Source: an uncultured bacterium
GTDB taxonomy: Bacteria > Bacteroidota > Rhodothermia > Rhodothermales > UBA10348
NCBI GenBank assembly: GCA_943788505.1
Contig: CALSQR010000001.1
Span: 1,315,001-1,379,000, forward strand
Direction: 5' to 3'
Length of the DNA: 64,000 bases
Position 1 is the first letter of the stretch. Every line of letters starts with the position of its first letter. This document shows positions 18,505 through 27,978 of this stretch, in pieces. The position numbers and the translations under genes were made by a program. The notes beneath the pieces were generated by a model. That model searched no databases and was not told where the DNA came from. It saw only the letters and a program-made list of their open reading frames with translations.

Positions 18505-18539
18505 AAGGGGCGTCGCGCTATGCGCGACGCCCCTTTTTT
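18505..18539 (+). terminator. Strong intrinsic terminator after the TonB receptor gene
   Basis: AAGGGGCGTCGCGC (18505-18518) pairs perfectly with GCGCGACGCCCCTT (18522-18535) across a three-base TAT loop, followed by a T run (18534-18539). It separates the receptor gene from the nuo operon. The remaining bases to 18754 hold no gene that I can support. Confidence 0.9.
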
Positions 18540-18754: not shown

Positions 18755-19126
18755 ATGCTCTCCGATTTCATACCCTTCTTCATCCAGCTCGGCATCGCAG
18801 TCGGACTTTCGTTCACGCTGCTGAAGGCTGCCGCCTTGATCGGCCCGAAACGCGATAACGTTATCAAGATGACGTCCTACGAAAGTGGGATGGATCCTAT
18901 TGGATCTGCGAGGGAACGGTATTCGGTGAAATTCTACCTGGTCGCCATGATCTTCATCGTATTCGATGTTGAGATCGTGTTCCTGTATCCGTGGGCCGTC
19001 AGTTTTGACGAGTTCATTGCTGCAGGTGCCGGCCCAGGCGTAATGGCTGTGGTCTTGTTCTTCGTGATCATCCTTGCCATCGGCTTGGTATACGACATTA
19101 AAAAAGGCGGCCTCGAGTTTGATTGA
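18755..19126 (+). CDS. nuoA: NADH-quinone oxidoreductase subunit A
   Basis: A 123-residue membrane subunit of complex I with three hydrophobic segments. Family signatures are TSYESGMDPIGSARERYSVKFYLVAMIFIVFDVEIVF, including the conserved ESG and the Glu of FDVEIVFLYPW that lies near the quinone-binding region. First gene of the nuo cluster, 56 nt before nuoB. The ATG at 18755 gives a normal length. Confidence 0.96.
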   Translation: MLSDFIPFFIQLGIAVGLSFTLLKAAALIGPKRDNVIKMTSYESGMDPIGSARERYSVKFYLVAMIFIVFDVEIVFLYPWAVSFDEFIAAGAGPGVMAVVLFFVIILAIGLVYDIKKGGLEFD

Positions 19127-19182
19127 TACCTGCTTGACAGCCACTCCGCCCCGAACCAGAATTCTCACAAGCGTACAGTCCA

Positions 19183-19764
19183 ATGGGACCTGAAAATGCC
19201 CTCCAGGAAGGGTTTATGACAACCCGCGTTGACGCGGTCGTTAACTGGGCGCGGTCAAACTCGCTCATGCCCATGCCTATGGGCCTTGCGTGTTGCGCCA
19301 TCGAAATGATGGCGTTCGCAGCACCCAAGTATGACGTCGCCCGATTCGGAAGTGAAGCCATGCGGTTTTCACCACGGCAGGCCGATCTCATGATTGTCGC
19401 TGGCTGGGTGAGCTACAAAATGGCTCACACCATCCGTCGCGTCTGGGACCAGATGGCTGATCCAAAGTGGTGCATCGCCATGGGTGCCTGTGCCTCTTCT
19501 GGTGGAATGCACCGCTGTTATGGCGTTGTGCAGGGTTGCGACAACTTTCTTCCTGTCGATGTTTACATCCCGGGATGCCCTCCCCGCCCGGAAGCCGTCA
19601 TCCACGCCCTGATGGATATCCAGGAAAAAATCCGGAACGAATATTCGGTAGCGCAGGATGGTGAGTTCGGCAAAGAAGTGCGCAAAATCACGCCAGCCCG
19701 TCCAACGATTGTTACTCCGACAGGTGAGGATGCTATTTCTCCCTCCGGTCTGTATACCCAGTGA
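19183..19764 (+). CDS. nuoB: NADH-quinone oxidoreductase subunit B
   Basis: 193 residues. Binds the terminal cluster N2, which passes electrons to quinone. The tandem cysteines C37/C38 ([10 protein letters not shown]), C103 (GACASSGG) and C132 ([11 protein letters not shown]) are all present. The C-terminal tail of about 40 residues after the helix MDIQEKI is variable in the family. Its stop codon overlaps the GTG start of nuoC (GTGA). Confidence 0.97.
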
Positions 19765-20453
19765 GCACCATGGCTGATACCAATAAATCCAAGGCGCCCA
19801 GTACCCTGCCGTTCAGCTTTGTCCCGCAGGAACCGGAAACGGCCGTTGAGAACAATCCCCATGCGAAGGCCACCACTCAGGTTGCTGACGTGGTGGAAGC
19901 GCTCAAAGCCTCTTTTGGCGACGCCGTTCATGAGGTTGTTGTCTATGCGGGTGAGCACACCGTTCGTGTTGATCGCACCCGAATCGTAGAGGTCTGCACG
20001 TTCCTCAAGACTGAACAAGGATTCAATTACCTAGCCGATGCCGGCGGGTTAGACCGATTCACCGAGGATGACCGCTACGAAGTGTTCTATAACCTCGTGA
20101 ACATCACGGACATGAAGCGAATCCGCATATCGTTGCGGGTGGACGAGGACGGCATGAGTGTGCCGACGGTCACAGATGTTTACCCGGCAGCTAACTGGAA
20201 CGAACGCGAGTGCTTTGACATGTTCGGCATTTCGTTTGATGGCCATCCGGACCTTCGGCGCATGTTTATGCCCGAAGACTTTGAATATTACCCGCTCCGC
20301 AAGGAATTTCCTTTGTTGGGCGTACCTGGCTCTCTTCCCCTGCCGCCGCAGGTACCGACGGGAGAACTCACGGGAGATCCGTTCCCGGCTGCTCACGGAC
20401 ACAAGCCTCCGAAGAGCTTCCAGGAAGTCAAAAGTGAAGAGGAAAACGGATGA
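19761..20453 (+). CDS. nuoC: NADH-quinone oxidoreductase subunit C
   Basis: 230 residues, 30-kDa-type peripheral arm subunit. The conserved block [47 protein letters not shown] is present in full. An N-terminal stretch of about 50 residues ([21 protein letters not shown]) is longer than in minimal homologues. The GTG at 19761 overlaps nuoB by 4 nt; an ATG three codons later is an alternative. Overlaps nuoD by 4 nt (ATGA), so it is a separate gene, not a nuoCD fusion. Confidence 0.95.
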
Positions 20454-21763
20454 GCTCGATTTCCCAGACCGATTTTTCGGAAACCCTCAAATTCTGGCCT
20501 CGCCACAACGAAGCGCTCTATCGCCGGCTCGAAACCAAGCATTCTTGGTTGGAAGATGTCCCGGGCGATGGTAGCCCTGCAGACCCTCTTGAGCACCAGA
20601 TGGTCCTCAACATTGGGCCGCAGCACCCTGCCACACACGGCGTACTTCGTTGCGTGGTCAAGCTTGACGGGGAAAGGATTGAACGGTGCGTCCTTGATAT
20701 CGGATACCTGCACCGCGGTGTAGAGAAAATCGCCGAAAACAAGACCTACCAGGAGTTCATGCCCTATACGGACCGCATGGACTACCTCTCTCCCTATTCA
20801 AACAACGTGGCTTGGTGCCTTGCTGTTGAAAAGCTTGCCGGTATCGAAGTGCCTGACCGGGCGCAGTGGATCCGGATGATGATGAGCGAACTGGCCCGCA
20901 TTTCAGCTCACTTGCTCTGGATGGGCGTGGGGTTGATGGACGCAGGCGCCGTTTCGGTCTTCCTCTGGTCGTTCCAGTTCCGCGAAGATCTGTATACGAT
21001 TTTTGACGAGGTAGCCGGTGCTCGTTTGACAGTATCTCATTCACGGATTGGTGGAGTAGCCACGGACCTGAATGACACGGGCATTGCCCTTATCGCTGAC
21101 TTTGCAGAGCGTTTTCCTGAAGCCATCGCTGGATGGGAAAAACTGCTCAACCGCAACCGAATCTGGATCGATCGCAACCTCGGCATTGGTTACATGAGTG
21201 CCGAAGACGTCGTAGCTCGTGGCCTTACGGGTCCCAACCTGCGAGGATCTGGTGTGGCGCATGACATCCGCCGTTTCGAGCCATACCTGAAGTATGAAGA
21301 GGTAGACTTCCAGATTCCAATCCGTACCGAAGGAGACGCCCTCGCTCGTTACTTCATCCGTATGGATGAAATGAAGGAGAGCGTCAAGATCATCAAGCAG
21401 TGCCTCGAGGCCCTGAAGACCGTAAAAGGTGCTGTTCGAACTGATGATGCAAAGCGTTCCTATCCGAGCAAAGACGAAGTCTACTACTCGATGGAAGGCC
21501 TCATTCATGACTTCATGTACACCGACACAGGTGTAACGCCGCCTAAAGGGGCGTCCGTCTACCATGCAATCGAAGCGCCAAAGGGTGAGTTGGGCTTCTA
21601 CTTGCAATCAGACGGAACAGGAAGTCCATGGCGTGCGAAAATGAACTCCCCAAGCTTTTCCAACCTACAGGGTCTTGAAACCCTGCTCGAAGGCGCCCAA
21701 ATGGGCGACATGGTGATCCTCATCGGAACCGTTGATCCGGTTCTCGGGGAAGCCGACAAATAA
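20450..21763 (+). CDS. nuoD: NADH-quinone oxidoreductase subunit D
   Basis: 437 residues, 49-kDa-type subunit that forms the quinone pocket with NuoB. It has the signatures NIGPQHPATHGVLR, LDIGYLHRGVEKIAEN, PYTDRMDYLSPYSNN and the C-terminal RAKMNSPSFSNLQGL...DMVILIGTVDPVLGEADK. It is homologous to the large subunit of NiFe hydrogenases. The start ATG overlaps the nuoC stop by four bases. Confidence 0.97.
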   Translation: MSSISQTDFSETLKFWPRHNEALYRRLETKHSWLEDVPGDGSPADPLEHQMVLNIGPQHPATHGVLRCVVKLDGERIERCVLDIGYLHRGVEKIAENKTYQEFMPYTDRMDYLSPYSNNVAWCLAVEKLAGIEVPDRAQWIRMMMSELARISAHLLWMGVGLMDAGAVSVFLWSFQFREDLYTIFDEVAGARLTVSHSRIGGVATDLNDTGIALIADFAERFPEAIAGWEKLLNRNRIWIDRNLGIGYMSAEDVVARGLTGPNLRGSGVAHDIRRFEPYLKYEEVDFQIPIRTEGDALARYFIRMDEMKESVKIIKQCLEALKTVKGAVRTDDAKRSYPSKDEVYYSMEGLIHDFMYTDTGVTPPKGASVYHAIEAPKGELGFYLQSDGTGSPWRAKMNSPSFSNLQGLETLLEGAQMGDMVILIGTVDPVLGEADK

Positions 21764-21783
21764 ACCGATCTGCCCCAGCAATC

Positions 21784-22458
21784 ATGGCTGACTTCATTAA
21801 ACATCCCGTGGTCGAGCTTCCAGACCGGAAACCCGAACCCGTGTTCGGACCGGACGAACTCGTTTTCTCTGAGGATGAAAAAGCTCAGGTAAAAACCTGG
21901 ATTTCGCGGTACCCAACTGCCGACGGCGCCATAATGCGTGGCCTGTGGTTGGCCCAAGAAAAATTTGGCTTCCTACCTCCAGAAGTAATCCAACTTGTGG
22001 CGGACGAAATCGGTATTCCGTACGCGAATGCGTACGGCGTGGCCACGTTCTATACCCAGTATTTTAAGGAGAAAAAAGGTACGTACGTCCTAGACGTTTG
22101 CACCTGTTTCTCCTGTCAGTTGTGCGGTGGGTTTGACATGCTACACTACCTCGAGGAGAAGCTTGGTGTCCACAAAGGGGAAACGACCCCTGATGGCGAC
22201 TTCACGATCCAAGAAGCTGAATGCCTGGGTGCTTGTGGATCGGCCCCGATGTTGCAGATTACGAATGGACCGTTTGTCCATAATCTGACGGAAGAGAAGA
22301 TCGATGCCCTGGTGGATGCTCTGCGCGAAGGTCAGATGCCAGCATTCACGTCCGTCACTCTCCCTCAGGACGAGGACGAACTGGGCGGCAACCGGCGAAC
22401 GGATGTCTCTGCGACAGATACGTATTCCGTCCGTCCAGTAAGCGAGACGGTACGATGA
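21784..22458 (+). CDS. nuoE: NADH-quinone oxidoreductase subunit E, with C-terminal extension
   Basis: 224 residues, 24-kDa-type thioredoxin-like 2Fe-2S subunit carrying cluster N1a. Cluster ligands are C106 and C111 (VCTCFSC) and C147 and C151 (AECLGACGSAPM). The catalytic core ends near residue 185; about 40 further residues (VTLPQDEDELGGNRRTDVS and onwards) are polar, likely disordered, and not part of the standard family. Spaced 20 nt after nuoD and 49 nt before nuoF. Confidence 0.95.
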   Translation: MADFIKHPVVELPDRKPEPVFGPDELVFSEDEKAQVKTWISRYPTADGAIMRGLWLAQEKFGFLPPEVIQLVADEIGIPYANAYGVATFYTQYFKEKKGTYVLDVCTCFSCQLCGGFDMLHYLEEKLGVHKGETTPDGDFTIQEAECLGACGSAPMLQITNGPFVHNLTEEKIDALVDALREGQMPAFTSVTLPQDEDELGGNRRTDVSATDTYSVRPVSETVR

Positions 22459-22507: not shown

Positions 22508-23821
22508 ATGAGCAAAGCCGGCGATTGGCGCAATTACCAGCGAGTCCTGCTTCCCCCAGTCAAGGATCTCCACAAATTGGAGGTCTATGAAGCCAACGAA
22601 GGGTATGCAGCCCTGCGTGACGTTGTCACTACTGACAAATGGGACCCAACTTCAGTTACGAACGAAGTCAAGAAAAGTGGCCTTAAGGGTCGCGGTGGAG
22701 CCGGCTTCCCGACGGGGCTGAAGTGGAGTTTCATGCCTCCTGTTGACCCTGACATACCCCGTTTCCTGTGTTGTAATGGAGATGAGTCCGAGCCGGGCAC
22801 CTTCAAGGACCGCCAGCTCATGGAATACAATCCTCATCTGGTATTCGAAGGCATGCTGATTGCCGCCTATGCGATGTCGATCAAGACGACATTTCTCTAC
22901 ATCCGTGGAGAGTTTGCCGACTGGATCACGCTCATGGAGAAGGAACTCGAGAAAGCCTATGAGAAAGGTTTTGTCGGCAAAAACATAATGGGATCCGACT
23001 TCTCGTGTGATATCGTGATCCACAAAGGAGCTGGTGCTTATATCTGTGGGGAAGAGTCATCTTTAATGAACTCCTTGGAAGGCAAACGCGCTTATCCTCG
23101 CATCAAGCCGCCGTTTCCTGCCCAGAAAGGTGTTTGGGGGTATCCAACCACCATTAACAATGTTGAAACACTGGCCTGCGCTCCACTCATCATCCGCAAA
23201 GGCGGTGAGTGGTTTTCAGGAATTGGCTCGGAGAAGCACCCCGGTCCAGTCCTGTACGGAATTTCAGGGCATGTCAATCGCCCGGGAGTGTACGAATTCC
23301 CGACCGGCATGCTGATTACCGACCTCATTGAAGAGGTAGCTGGTGGTATGCGAGGAGGCAAACAACTCAAGGCCCTCATTCCTGGCGGCTCATCTACCCC
23401 AATCCTGCGCGCCGATATGATCGAGGGCGTGACAATGGATGCCGACTCACTGCGTGAGGCCGGTTCCATGATGGGAACGAGTGGTATGCTAATCATGGAT
23501 GAAGACACAGATATCGTGTCTTGGCTGCGTAGGATCACTCATTTCTACCATCACGAAAGTTGTGGGCAGTGCACCCCATGCCGTGAAGGCACTGGGTGGC
23601 TAGAAAATATTGTAACCCGGCTTGACGAAGGCGAAGGCAATCTGCGCGATCTCGATCTGCTCATTGATTTGTGTTCGCAGATGGAAGGTCGGACCGTTTG
23701 TGCCCTTGCAGATGCCGCCGCATGGCCGGTTCGCTACACAATTGATCGGTTCCGTAGTGAGTTCGAGGGCAAGTGTAAAAAGCCTTCCCCCGTGGCCAGT
23801 GCAGAACTAGCGACAGCCTGA
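22508..23821 (+). CDS. nuoF: NADH-quinone oxidoreductase subunit F
   Basis: 437 residues, 51-kDa-type subunit that oxidises NADH at FMN and holds cluster N3. Motifs: GRGGAGFPTG (61-70) for FMN/NADH, NGDESEPGTFKDR, GAGAYICGEESSLMNSLEG, and the N3 site ESCGQCTPCREGT with a later Cys in RTVCALADAAAWPV. A short C-terminal tail follows. Start at the ATG at 22508; an interval of 30 nt separates it from the DUF4920 gene rather than from nuoG as in most operons. Confidence 0.97.
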   Translation: MSKAGDWRNYQRVLLPPVKDLHKLEVYEANEGYAALRDVVTTDKWDPTSVTNEVKKSGLKGRGGAGFPTGLKWSFMPPVDPDIPRFLCCNGDESEPGTFKDRQLMEYNPHLVFEGMLIAAYAMSIKTTFLYIRGEFADWITLMEKELEKAYEKGFVGKNIMGSDFSCDIVIHKGAGAYICGEESSLMNSLEGKRAYPRIKPPFPAQKGVWGYPTTINNVETLACAPLIIRKGGEWFSGIGSEKHPGPVLYGISGHVNRPGVYEFPTGMLITDLIEEVAGGMRGGKQLKALIPGGSSTPILRADMIEGVTMDADSLREAGSMMGTSGMLIMDEDTDIVSWLRRITHFYHHESCGQCTPCREGTGWLENIVTRLDEGEGNLRDLDLLIDLCSQMEGRTVCALADAAAWPVRYTIDRFRSEFEGKCKKPSPVASAELATA

Positions 23822-23851: not shown

Positions 23852-24484
23852 ATGACGCGTATCCTTCTTTCAGCCTTTATCGGATTGCTCTTTCTTGCTG
23901 GGTGCTCCGATTCTCAGGAAACCTCAACCCCGACATCTTCTGTTGTGGCTTTGGCATCCTATGATGTTTTTGGTGATGGTTTTGATCAAGTTGACGCCGT
24001 TCCCGTGCAGCAGGTTGCGAGTAACCCTTCAGACTATCTTGGCTCACCCGTCAAGGTATCTGGAACGATCACTCAAGTCTGTCAGGGAATGGGATGTTGG
24101 ATGACTCTGCGGGTGTCAGATACACAACTCGTTCGCATTGTCATGCCAAGAGACGATCAGGACAACTACCTGTTCACGTTGGCCAAGGACATCAGTGGAC
24201 GGCGTGCTGTTATTATGGGCACCTTAGACGAGTCAACCCTTGCTGAGTTTGAAGCACCCATGCATCAGGACGGTGATTCTGAAGGGCATCATGCCGATGA
24301 ATATGATGAAGGCGAGCACCATGCTGAGGGGCAAGAAGCCGATGACGACCACCATGCTGAGGAAGAAGAAGCTGATGACGACCACAGCACCGTGGAAGGA
24401 CTCGAATTGCATATCACTGCGAGCGGCGTCCTTGTAGAGAAGCCGGACGAAGCGACAGATGCTTCTGTCGAAACCACCGACTGA
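23852..24484 (+). CDS. DUF4920 lipoprotein with His/Asp/Glu-rich segment, embedded in nuo
   Basis: 210 residues. Lipobox LAGC (Cys18). The core (about 35-136 and 182-196) fits DUF4920: YDVFGDGF, a small OB-like beta domain, and CQGMGCWM with C77/C82. The core is interrupted by about 40 residues (138-179) holding four HH pairs or triplets within acidic runs (GHHADE, EHHAEG, DHHAEEEE, DDDHS), a composition typical of Zn/Cu/Ni-binding stretches. The underlying DNA contains a near-direct repeat (GATGACGACCAC at two sites), suggesting expansion by duplication. The gene is between nuoF and nuoG on the same strand with tight spacing, so it is co-transcribed with complex I. Function unknown; a role in metal handling for the respiratory chain is inference only. 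Confidence 0.85.
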   Translation: MTRILLSAFIGLLFLAGCSDSQETSTPTSSVVALASYDVFGDGFDQVDAVPVQQVASNPSDYLGSPVKVSGTITQVCQGMGCWMTLRVSDTQLVRIVMPRDDQDNYLFTLAKDISGRRAVIMGTLDESTLAEFEAPMHQDGDSEGHHADEYDEGEHHAEGQEADDDHHAEEEEADDDHSTVEGLELHITASGVLVEKPDEATDASVETTD

Positions 24485-24506: not shown

Positions 24507-26225
24507 ATGGCCAAAGTCACAATTGACAACCAGACATTCGAATTTGAGGGGCAAGAAAAGCTTCTCCAGTTCTGCTTGGACCACGGCGTAGACCTTCCTC
24601 ACTTCTGCTATCATCCTTCGATGTCCGCACCGGCCAACTGCCGCCAGTGTCTTGTCGAAGTCGGAATGCCGCAGATGAACCGAGAAACAGGTCAGCCTAA
24701 CATGGATGAAGATGGCAATACCGTCATCCAATTCATGCCCAAGCTGCAGACTTCTTGCTCCATGCAGATGTCTGATGGAATGGTCGTAAAGACTCATTGC
24801 TCGAGCGAGACGGTAAAACGCGCTCAGAAGGACACTCTGGAGTTCTTGCTAATCAATCACCCGTTGGATTGCCCAATTTGTGACCAAGCTGGACACTGCC
24901 CGCTTCAGAACCAGGCCTACAAGCATGGTCCTGAAGGATCTCGGTTTGAGTTTGAGAAGGTCCACAAGCCCAAGCATATCGATCTCGGTCCCCGCGTAGT
25001 CCTAGACGGCGAGCGGTGCATCAACTGCACACGATGCATCCGGTTTACGCGCGAAGTCAGTAAGAGCGATCAGCTTACGATCATTGAGCGTGGTGTCAAG
25101 AACTACCCAATGACCCCTCCAGGCGTTGAGTTCGACGAACCCTACTCGATGAACGTGATTGATATCTGTCCTGTCGGCGCACTGACATCAAAGGACCATC
25201 GCTTTAAAGCCCGTATTTGGGAAATGAGCAAGACGGCATCTATTTCTGCCGTCGGCGCGAAGGGTTCCAATTGTGACTACTGGGTCAAAGACAACCTTAT
25301 CCTGAAGGTCACTCCAAGGACCAATATGGATGTGAACGAATATTGGCTAGCCGACGAAGAGCGCGCCGACTATAAGCGTTTTAACGAGGATCGACCGACA
25401 AGCCCGACCGTTTCCGGCGCTGACGTTTCATGGGACATGGCTTGGAAAGCTGCTGCAGACTGTCTCAAAGAAGTCGACGGAAACCGTGTACTCTTCCTCG
25501 GTTCGGCGTATGCCACAGTGGAAGACAATTACCTCCTGTCTCGTCTGGCTGAGGCTGTTGGATCTTCTGCGCCTGTCTATTTGCCACACGTGGAGAATGG
25601 ACATGGCGATGACTGGCTGCGCACCGATGACCGCACGCCGAATGCACAAGGATGCGAGCGTCTTGGAATCCATGCCGTTTCAGCAGATGACTTGAAAGCT
25701 CGTCTTACATCTGGTGAAGTGGACCTTCTCTACGTTATGGAAGACGACCCTGTAGCATCGGGCGCATGTTCTGTTGCTGACCTAGAGGGCATCAAAGTTG
25801 TCCTTCACCACTACAACACGACAAATGCGACGTTGCCAGCAGCAGATGTAGCGCTGCCGGCCGCCACGGCTGTTGAAACGGTCGGTACGTACGTAAATAT
25901 TGACGGTCATGCACAGCGCCTGCGCCCAGCGAAAGCTATTGCAGGAGTAAACCGAACGCTTTCGATGGAAATTGGGAAGTGCCGGGCAGACCGTCACGGC
26001 ACGCCGTTTGACAAGTGGTATACGGAATCGAACCTCGTTAATTGCCACCCAGGATGGGTAACAATTCCGAGCATCGCGGCTGAACTGGGTACAGAAATGA
26101 CCTACAAAGGCCCGAAAGCGATAATGGAAGAAGTCACGGCGTCTGTACTGGCTTTTAAAGGAGCTACGTACGACGCCATGGGAGAAATGGGTGTCCGTCT
26201 AACTGAGGCTGGCGTCACTGCCTGA
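24507..26225 (+). CDS. nuoG: NADH-quinone oxidoreductase subunit G (short form)
   Basis: 572 residues from the ATG at 24507; the frame extends 16 codons upstream into the DUF4920 gene, but MAKVTIDNQTFEFEG is the normal start. Clusters: N1b 2Fe-2S (C34, C45, C48, C84), the His/Cys cluster N5 (HPLDCPICDQAGHC, 118-131), and N4 (C171, C174, C177, C221). A molybdopterin-oxidoreductase-like region follows to the end. It is much shorter than E. coli NuoG (about 900) and appears to lack the cysteines of the extra N7 cluster. Follows the DUF4920 gene by 22 nt. Confidence 0.94.
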   Translation: MAKVTIDNQTFEFEGQEKLLQFCLDHGVDLPHFCYHPSMSAPANCRQCLVEVGMPQMNRETGQPNMDEDGNTVIQFMPKLQTSCSMQMSDGMVVKTHCSSETVKRAQKDTLEFLLINHPLDCPICDQAGHCPLQNQAYKHGPEGSRFEFEKVHKPKHIDLGPRVVLDGERCINCTRCIRFTREVSKSDQLTIIERGVKNYPMTPPGVEFDEPYSMNVIDICPVGALTSKDHRFKARIWEMSKTASISAVGAKGSNCDYWVKDNLILKVTPRTNMDVNEYWLADEERADYKRFNEDRPTSPTVSGADVSWDMAWKAAADCLKEVDGNRVLFLGSAYATVEDNYLLSRLAEAVGSSAPVYLPHVENGHGDDWLRTDDRTPNAQGCERLGIHAVSADDLKARLTSGEVDLLYVMEDDPVASGACSVADLEGIKVVLHHYNTTNATLPAADVALPAATAVETVGTYVNIDGHAQRLRPAKAIAGVNRTLSMEIGKCRADRHGTPFDKWYTESNLVNCHPGWVTIPSIAAELGTEMTYKGPKAIMEEVTASVLAFKGATYDAMGEMGVRLTEAGVTA

Positions 26226-26234
26226 TAATCGACT

Positions 26235-27260
26235 ATGAATCTTGCCTGGTACTGGACTGCTCTGATCGCTTTTGTGATCGTCAACTTCCTACTAATCTCG
26301 GCCTCAGTGCTCGTGTATGCAGAGCGTAAAGTCTCTGGATACATGCAAAACCGACCTGGACCCAATCGTGTGGGACCATTCGGATTCCTACAACCATTCG
26401 CTGACGTGGTAAAGCTGGTGTTCAAAGAGAACATCGTTCCGGCACTGGCTAATCCATTCGTTCATTCGTTGGCTCCAATGATGATGGTGGTTATCGCCAT
26501 GACAGCTGGAGCGCTGATCCCTTTTGCCCACAACGTAGTTATCGCCGACATGGACGTAAGTGTCCTGGTATTGTTGGCCCTTACATCTATTTCCGTATAC
26601 GGAGTTACGCTGGCTGGATGGAGTTCCAACAGCAAGTACTCCCTCCTTGGCGGACTTCGTTCAAGTGCCCAGATGATCTCCTATGAGCTCTCGATGGGAC
26701 TATCAGTACTGTCCGTTGTACTGATCGCTAGCTCATTGAGCTTAACGGAAATTGTAACTGATCAGGCAGGGGGATGGGGTATTCTCGGATGGAACGTCTT
26801 CCGCAATCCGATTGGAGCTATTCTCTTTATTGTCACAGCGTTTGCTGAGACGAACCGGGCGCCGTTTGACCTTCCAGAAGCCGAACAGGAATTGGTTGGT
26901 GGATATCATACCGAGTATTCAGGAATGAAATTCGGGATGTTTTTCCTCGCCGAATACGTGAACTTCTTCATCGCTTCCTTCGTGATCGTAACGCTATTCT
27001 TCGGCGGATACATGCTGCCGTTCGAATCATTGATATTGGCACAGTGGCCCGCATTGGCTGGATCTATTCCGCTGATGATCATGCAGATTGGAACGGTAAT
27101 CATCAAAGCCGGCTTCTTCGCCTACGTATTTATTTGGGTGCGTTGGACGCTACCCCGCTTCAAATATCAGCAGCTCATGACGTTGGGCTGGAAGTACCTA
27201 CTTCCGATCGCTCTAGTAAACGCAATGCTAGTCGCTGTCGGCGTTATGATTTTTTCCTGA
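26235..27260 (+). CDS. nuoH: NADH-quinone oxidoreductase subunit H
   Basis: 341 residues with about eight membrane segments. Connects the peripheral arm to the proton-pumping membrane arm and forms part of the quinone channel. Signatures are ERKVSGYMQNRPGPNRVGPFG near the N-terminus and the loop AETNRAPFDLPEAEQELVGGYHTEYSG. It is the last nuo gene here: nuoI to nuoN do not follow, and rpe comes next 55 nt downstream. Confidence 0.97.
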   Translation: MNLAWYWTALIAFVIVNFLLISASVLVYAERKVSGYMQNRPGPNRVGPFGFLQPFADVVKLVFKENIVPALANPFVHSLAPMMMVVIAMTAGALIPFAHNVVIADMDVSVLVLLALTSISVYGVTLAGWSSNSKYSLLGGLRSSAQMISYELSMGLSVLSVVLIASSLSLTEIVTDQAGGWGILGWNVFRNPIGAILFIVTAFAETNRAPFDLPEAEQELVGGYHTEYSGMKFGMFFLAEYVNFFIASFVIVTLFFGGYMLPFESLILAQWPALAGSIPLMIMQIGTVIIKAGFFAYVFIWVRWTLPRFKYQQLMTLGWKYLLPIALVNAMLVAVGVMIFS

Positions 27261-27315
27261 TCTAACACGTTGAGTGATGCAAGCGAAGGCGAGCATTACG
27301 AAACGATACGGTACC

Positions 27316-27978
27316 ATGCCCATTCTAGCCCCTAGTATTCTTTCTGCTGATTTTTCCAGATTGGGAGATCAATGTCGGGAAGCTGTTTCTGCGGGAGCAG
27401 AGTGGTTGCACGTCGATGTCATGGACGGTCATTTTGTCCCAAACATCACGATTGGCCCTCTTATCGTTCGCTCGCTTCGGCCTCTGGCTGACGAAACCGG
27501 TGCCGTCTTAGACGTACACCTGATGATTGAGAATCCGGACAGGTACGTAGAGGATTTTGCAAAAGCTGGGGCGGATATTATCACTGTCCATGTGGAAGCG
27601 TGTCCTCATCTGCACCGAACCATACAGGCTATTCGAGCAACAGGTGCGCGTGCAGGCGTCACACTGAATCCCGCGACTCCGCTCTCCACGCTGGAGGAGA
27701 TCCTTCCATATGTGGATTTAGTCCTGATCATGTCAGTGAATCCAGGTTTTGGAGGGCAATCTTACATTCCCTCTTCAACGGATAAGATTCGGCGCCTACG
27801 GGCCATGCTTGATGCCATCGGCTCAAAAGCCCATCTTGAAGTCGATGGCGGGGTAAAGGTCGGAAATATAGCCGAAGTGACGAGTGCTGGCGCTGACGTC
27901 ATTATCGCCGGAAGTGCAGTTTTTGGCGGTCAATCGAGCATTTCTGATAATGTATCGAGCCTAAAAGCGGCCTGGTGA
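27316..27978 (+). CDS. rpe: Ribulose-phosphate 3-epimerase
   Basis: About 220 residues from the ATG at 27316, which yields the canonical start MPILAPSILSADFSRLGDQ; 14 upstream in-frame codons are not conserved. TIM-barrel enzyme that interconverts ribulose-5-phosphate and xylulose-5-phosphate in the pentose phosphate pathway. Motifs: HVDVMDGHFVPN (32-43), DVHLMIENP, MSVNPGFGGQSYIP, EVDGGVK and VIIAGSAVFGG. Follows nuoH by 55 nt on the same strand, possibly by read-through. Confidence 0.95.
   Translation: MPILAPSILSADFSRLGDQCREAVSAGAEWLHVDVMDGHFVPNITIGPLIVRSLRPLADETGAVLDVHLMIENPDRYVEDFAKAGADIITVHVEACPHLHRTIQAIRATGARAGVTLNPATPLSTLEEILPYVDLVLIMSVNPGFGGQSYIPSSTDKIRRLRAMLDAIGSKAHLEVDGGVKVGNIAEVTSAGADVIIAGSAVFGGQSSISDNVSSLKAAW

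Follow-up and report, generated by a model that had tools for sequence, protein, structure and literature searches.

Does the position of an envelope lipoprotein gene between nuoF and nuoG, two genes of respiratory complex I, indicate that its product works with this complex, or does the protein have a task of its own? The gene in question is an open reading frame of 210 amino acids (23852-24484; ATG at 23852, stop codon ending at 24484) in a 64,000-nucleotide stretch from an uncultured bacterium of the order Rhodothermales, hereafter the window, on whose plus strand all the window features given below are located. In a Pfam profile search, residues 67-128 match PF16267 (DUF4920) with 37.6 bits, against a curated cut-off of 25 bits, and the N terminus holds a predicted signal peptide with the lipobox FLAGC (23852-23905), whose lipidated residue, Cys18, is invariant in a 23-row alignment. 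Profile match and lipobox together back the initial annotation of the gene as a DUF4920 lipoprotein, for which the coordinates, the lipobox (F-L-A-G-C18), and the CxxxxC motif (C77-C82) are as claimed, and the lipobox also supports the proposed location in the envelope, outside the inner membrane. The cysteines belong to a CQGMGCW motif (C77, C82, and W83; 24080-24100) in a turn between two strands, with C77, G81, C82, and W83 invariant in 58 sequences. The window protein thus has both traits of the family, the C-x4-C-W motif and a conserved His further downstream (the H146 column), along with a score above the cut-off and a lipoprotein signal; it differs from the family in that the conserved His loop has grown to a long His/Asp/Glu tract and in that the gene is located in the nuo operon. 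A literature search found no paper naming DUF4920 or PF16267, and PDB sequence searches found no solved relative; the analysis presented here offers a structural and comparative frame for this common but uncharacterized family.

An AlphaFold2 model built with 58 sequences predicts an OB fold, with a core at residues 66-129 (24047-24238; pLDDT of about 95 and above) and, at residues 184-196 (24401-24439), the last strand. In this model the CQGMGCW motif is flanked by strands 66-76 and 83-87, and the His/Asp/Glu loop (residues 138-178; 24263-24385) is predicted to be disordered, with a pLDDT of 44-64. Foldseek returned the OB folds of RPA14, RPA32, and aminoacyl-tRNA synthetases (probability about 1.00, E near 0.005), matches that support the predicted OB fold, not homology. 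The heme chaperone CcmE is also a periplasmic OB-fold protein with a functional His late in its chain. Its likeness to the window protein, with a predicted OB fold in the periplasm and a late-chain His, is a lead only: the 50 top-ranking Foldseek matches do not include CcmE, and there is no sequence match either.

The tract that fills the disordered loop contains eight His and 20 Asp/Glu residues; the initial annotation had correctly described an acidic, His-rich stretch at residues 138-179 but had counted seven His. This His density is unmatched in the window, where the other stop-to-stop frames of at least 150 amino acids (67 frames) hold at most five His per 42 residues. The direct DNA repeats that had been noted as compatible with expansion were recovered by Tandem Repeats Finder as a 33-bp unit present in 2.2 copies with 87% matches (24313-24385; score 111). 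Under synonymous recoding of the two repeat peptides, the observed identity of 26/33 was reached with a P of about 0.02; the DNA repeat therefore exceeds by a modest margin only what the peptide repeat implies. The tract aligns to the HYAED loop of DUF4920, ahead of the last strand, and the His of this HYAED-like motif is near-invariant across 58 DUF4920 sequences, the H146 column being at least 90% conserved. Within the order, the window's own family repeats HHAE/HHDE-like units in the loop, with lengths that differ between genera and expansions that vary in length and repeat among G015, G019, and G000. Comparing the His tract across relatives, as had been proposed, we counted a median of six His (4-13) between the motif and the end of the protein in the window's own family (n=10) versus two (1-7) among the other members of the order (n=48), with a Mann-Whitney P of 4e-6 for rows that are phylogenetically related and not independent. 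Because some members of the order have just one or two His in the DUF4920 domain, the His tract is, judged from these sequences, dispensable for the basic job of the family.

Both neighbors of the gene were identified by Pfam and TIGR profiles, which bears out its placement between nuoF and nuoG. Upstream lie nuoA-nuoE (18755-22458; NuoE matching PF01257, and NuoD matching PF00346 at G000:C1:1335939-1336760) and nuoF (22508-23821; TIGR01959, 590 bits); downstream follow nuoG (24507-26225) and, at the end of the gene run, nuoH and rpe (26235-27978; PF00146 and PF00834). NuoG matches TIGR01973 over residues 4-354 with an E value of 8e-117, below that model's cut-off, and Pfam Fer4_Nqo3 and NADH-G_4Fe-4S_3 above theirs; its real start is likely 24507, where the sequence MAKVTIDN aligns with the relatives. 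The DUF4920 gene is separated from nuoF by 30 bp, and its stop codon from nuoG by 22 bp. Between nuoE and nuoG we found no sigma-70-like promoter and no terminator-like site on the plus strand, and hence none of the signals for separate transcription that had been named as counterevidence by the initial annotation; a Bacteroidota-type promoter pattern was found nowhere in the 64-kb window. A strong terminator-like hairpin (18505-18535; 14-pair stem with a T tail) stands after the TonB receptor gene and before nuoA. The lack of internal signals, together with this hairpin, the gaps, and the common strand, makes it likely that nuoF, the DUF4920 gene, and nuoG form one transcription unit. In the same genome, three nuoL/M/N-like antiporter-type subunits are encoded at G000:C2:182153-188521, on a contig other than that of nuoA-H, so that the complex I genes are split.

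Across the order, DUF4920 is present in 65 of 114 genomes. The synteny counts are based on 63 readable DUF4920 loci, 48 of which have the nuoF-DUF4920-nuoG arrangement, while two keep the nuoF side only and 13 lie elsewhere. The synteny, whose absence in all close relatives had been named as speaking against the annotation, is thus widely shared, and because 48/63 loci have it, its presence in the ancestor of the order is the best reading. That ancestor would have gained the DUF4920 gene inside the nuo operon, likely by a single insertion, on a tree of 104 columns with many open forks. The 13 loci elsewhere comprise five of a second subtype, three that cluster with Bacteroidota sequences, four from one genus whose other members keep the nuo position, and one from G005, a genus-mate of the window's genome. 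The second subtype (motif KVxDGxIVFP; L088, L090, L237, L238, and L251) groups with Acidobacteriota sequences, which suggests a separate acquisition. Two genomes from a different family within the order, G026 and G040, carry in this slot the gene for an unrelated protein of 144 amino acids (L047:2816-3247; also L046), which has no match in Pfam and two stretches that look transmembrane.

The link to complex I that the initial annotation had considered was not borne out. Among 41 relatives, DUF4920 and NuoF occur together in 20, DUF4920 alone in two, NuoF alone in 17, and neither in two, so that their presence shows no association; DUF4920 is absent in 17/37 NuoF-bearing relatives, and in 15 relatives nuoF adjoins nuoG with 28-65 bp between them and nothing inserted. 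The opposite loss is seen in G005 (97% complete; 245-kb contig), which lacks NuoF, NuoD, and the antiporter-type subunits, that is, every complex I marker sought, and carries an NQR2-type subunit that is absent from the window's genome. Gene order at its locus follows that of the window through an amidohydrolase (73% identity), a TonB receptor (75%), DUF4920 (58%), rpe (Rpe, 85%), an HtrA-like protease (81%), a hydantoinase-like gene, and a KefB-like transporter, the flanking gene names coming from sequence reading except for the TonB receptor and Rpe. On either side of the intact DUF4920 gene, nuoA-F and nuoG-H are gone, and a search for nuo remnants nearby matched only the post-TonB terminator region, DUF4920, and rpe. 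The G005 gene is sister to that of the nuo-bearing G006 (support 100/95), and the two differ with a pN of 0.15 and a pS of 0.76 (pN/pS about 0.2). Losses on both sides that spare DUF4920 would be expected if it had a function of its own, and the protein probably has a job apart from complex I. G005 thereby serves as a natural deletion experiment, in which a conserved gene position is separable from a functional link, although G005 is the single genome in which complex I is gone and the orthologue retained, and there is a small chance of an assembly gap in it. Searches of G001, which is of the same genus and 85% complete, recovered neither NuoF nor NuoD, nor the antiporter subunits or NQR2, gaps that may reflect an incomplete genome or another NADH dehydrogenase. 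G031, too, is without complex I but was set aside as a second case of loss because its DUF4920 is a different subtype.

DUF4920 is therefore found neither only with complex I, as G005 keeps it without the markers, nor wherever complex I occurs, as the 15 relatives with adjacent nuoF and nuoG demonstrate. Comparative genomics, in showing that each has been lost while the other stayed, indicates that the protein is neither a subunit nor an assembly factor of complex I. Such an order-specific accessory role, to which the conserved slot would point, is largely refuted by G005 and in our estimate very improbable: NuoF and NuoG are subunits of the cytoplasmic arm, whereas the lipobox marks an envelope protein and argues against contact with that arm, and none of the outside loci that we read adjoins nuo. 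Operon position alone, we caution, is a poor guide to complex I function. The reading that we favor, and to which we give about an even chance, is that of a periplasmic OB-fold lipoprotein with a putative metal-buffering loop, co-transcribed with complex I and functionally separate from it. The protein is lipid-anchored in the envelope, and its body is, in the confident model, a small OB-fold barrel, one turn of which bears the invariant C77 and C82; alignment and model show that, ahead of the last strand, the window's family has expanded the loop with the near-invariant HYAED His to a disordered His/Asp/Glu tract. The loop may loosely bind a divalent metal, perhaps together with the cysteines, and the protein may buffer or pass on periplasmic metal such as zinc or copper, while co-transcription would bring about its expression alongside respiration. 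Metal binding by the tract is plausible and fits the conserved Cys/Cys/His positions as well as the recurrent HHAE-like repeats. A flexible His/acid loop is also found in ZnuA, a periplasmic zinc-binding protein, but its fold and sequence are unrelated, and no ABC transporter partner lies beside the window gene. Another periplasmic zinc protein, PA4063 of Pseudomonas aeruginosa, has a ferredoxin-like fold, measured zinc binding, and His-rich loops that are disordered in the metal-free state (PMC8561739). The window protein displays the traits of such periplasmic metal proteins, being exported with a disordered loop of eight His in 42 residues, and differs from PA4063 in that its fold is a predicted OB fold and its zinc binding is inferred; PA4063 is a works-like analogue only, by which a metal-buffering loop would be the simplest functional reading. 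The acidic His tract might instead have expanded neutrally, by repeat slippage, or for solubility, as an acidic surface, and so have no metal role and leave the work to the OB core, an account that suits the 33-bp tandem repeat, the strong variation in length among near relatives, the disorder in the model, and the absence of long tracts from the rest of the order. However, it is His that is specifically enriched, at 8/42 residues versus at most five in other frames, at least four His persist in the region in all type-A members of the window's family although the repeats differ, and the loop expanded at the site of a near-invariant His; we consider a neutral tract unlikely, but a serious contender.

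DUF4920 is common in Bacteroidota beyond the order, and 199 of the 394 genomes sampled from this phylum carry it; it is also present in Acidobacteriota, Planctomycetota, and Gammaproteobacteria. Directly after it, 14 of the outside loci have the gene for a small lipoprotein that matches no Pfam family above cut-off and has an invariant heme-type motif, CxxCHxxxCxGP; this lipoprotein is hosted by Balneolia, Chitinophaga, and Flavobacteriia-type genomes (L155:5465-5893, L139, L168, L190, and others) and suggests a tie between DUF4920 and periplasmic electron transfer. The protein could accordingly be imagined as a thiol or electron-transfer accessory of the periplasm, its two invariant cysteines cycling through a C77-C82 disulfide across the hairpin turn and its partners being c-type cytochromes or thioredoxin-like lipoproteins; cytochrome c is encoded upstream of DUF4920 in three loci, and Redoxin or thioredoxin/rhodanese proteins lie close by in some. 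Yet the neighbors are diverse and the majority of loci have no such partners, the heme-motif lipoprotein was not found in 17 genomes of the order, a fold search with its model gave no convincing match, cytochromes included, and CxxxxC differs from the CxxC of thioredoxin, so that we hold this role to be quite improbable. Co-occurrence with heme-copper oxidases is uninformative because COX1 is present in 371 of the 394 genomes. More speculatively, and unlikely as it may be, DUF4920 proteins might constitute an undescribed family of OB-fold lipoproteins of the periplasm that are related to metal or heme and serve aerobic respiration generally; their genes would neighbor those of complex I in one order and that of a new monoheme lipoprotein elsewhere, and the His tract would be a lineage-specific metal store. 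A literature search on Rhodothermus nuo genes yielded nothing useful. Elsewhere in the family, a Planctomycetota protein of 454 amino acids (L156:2909-4270) contains three DUF4920-like units in tandem.
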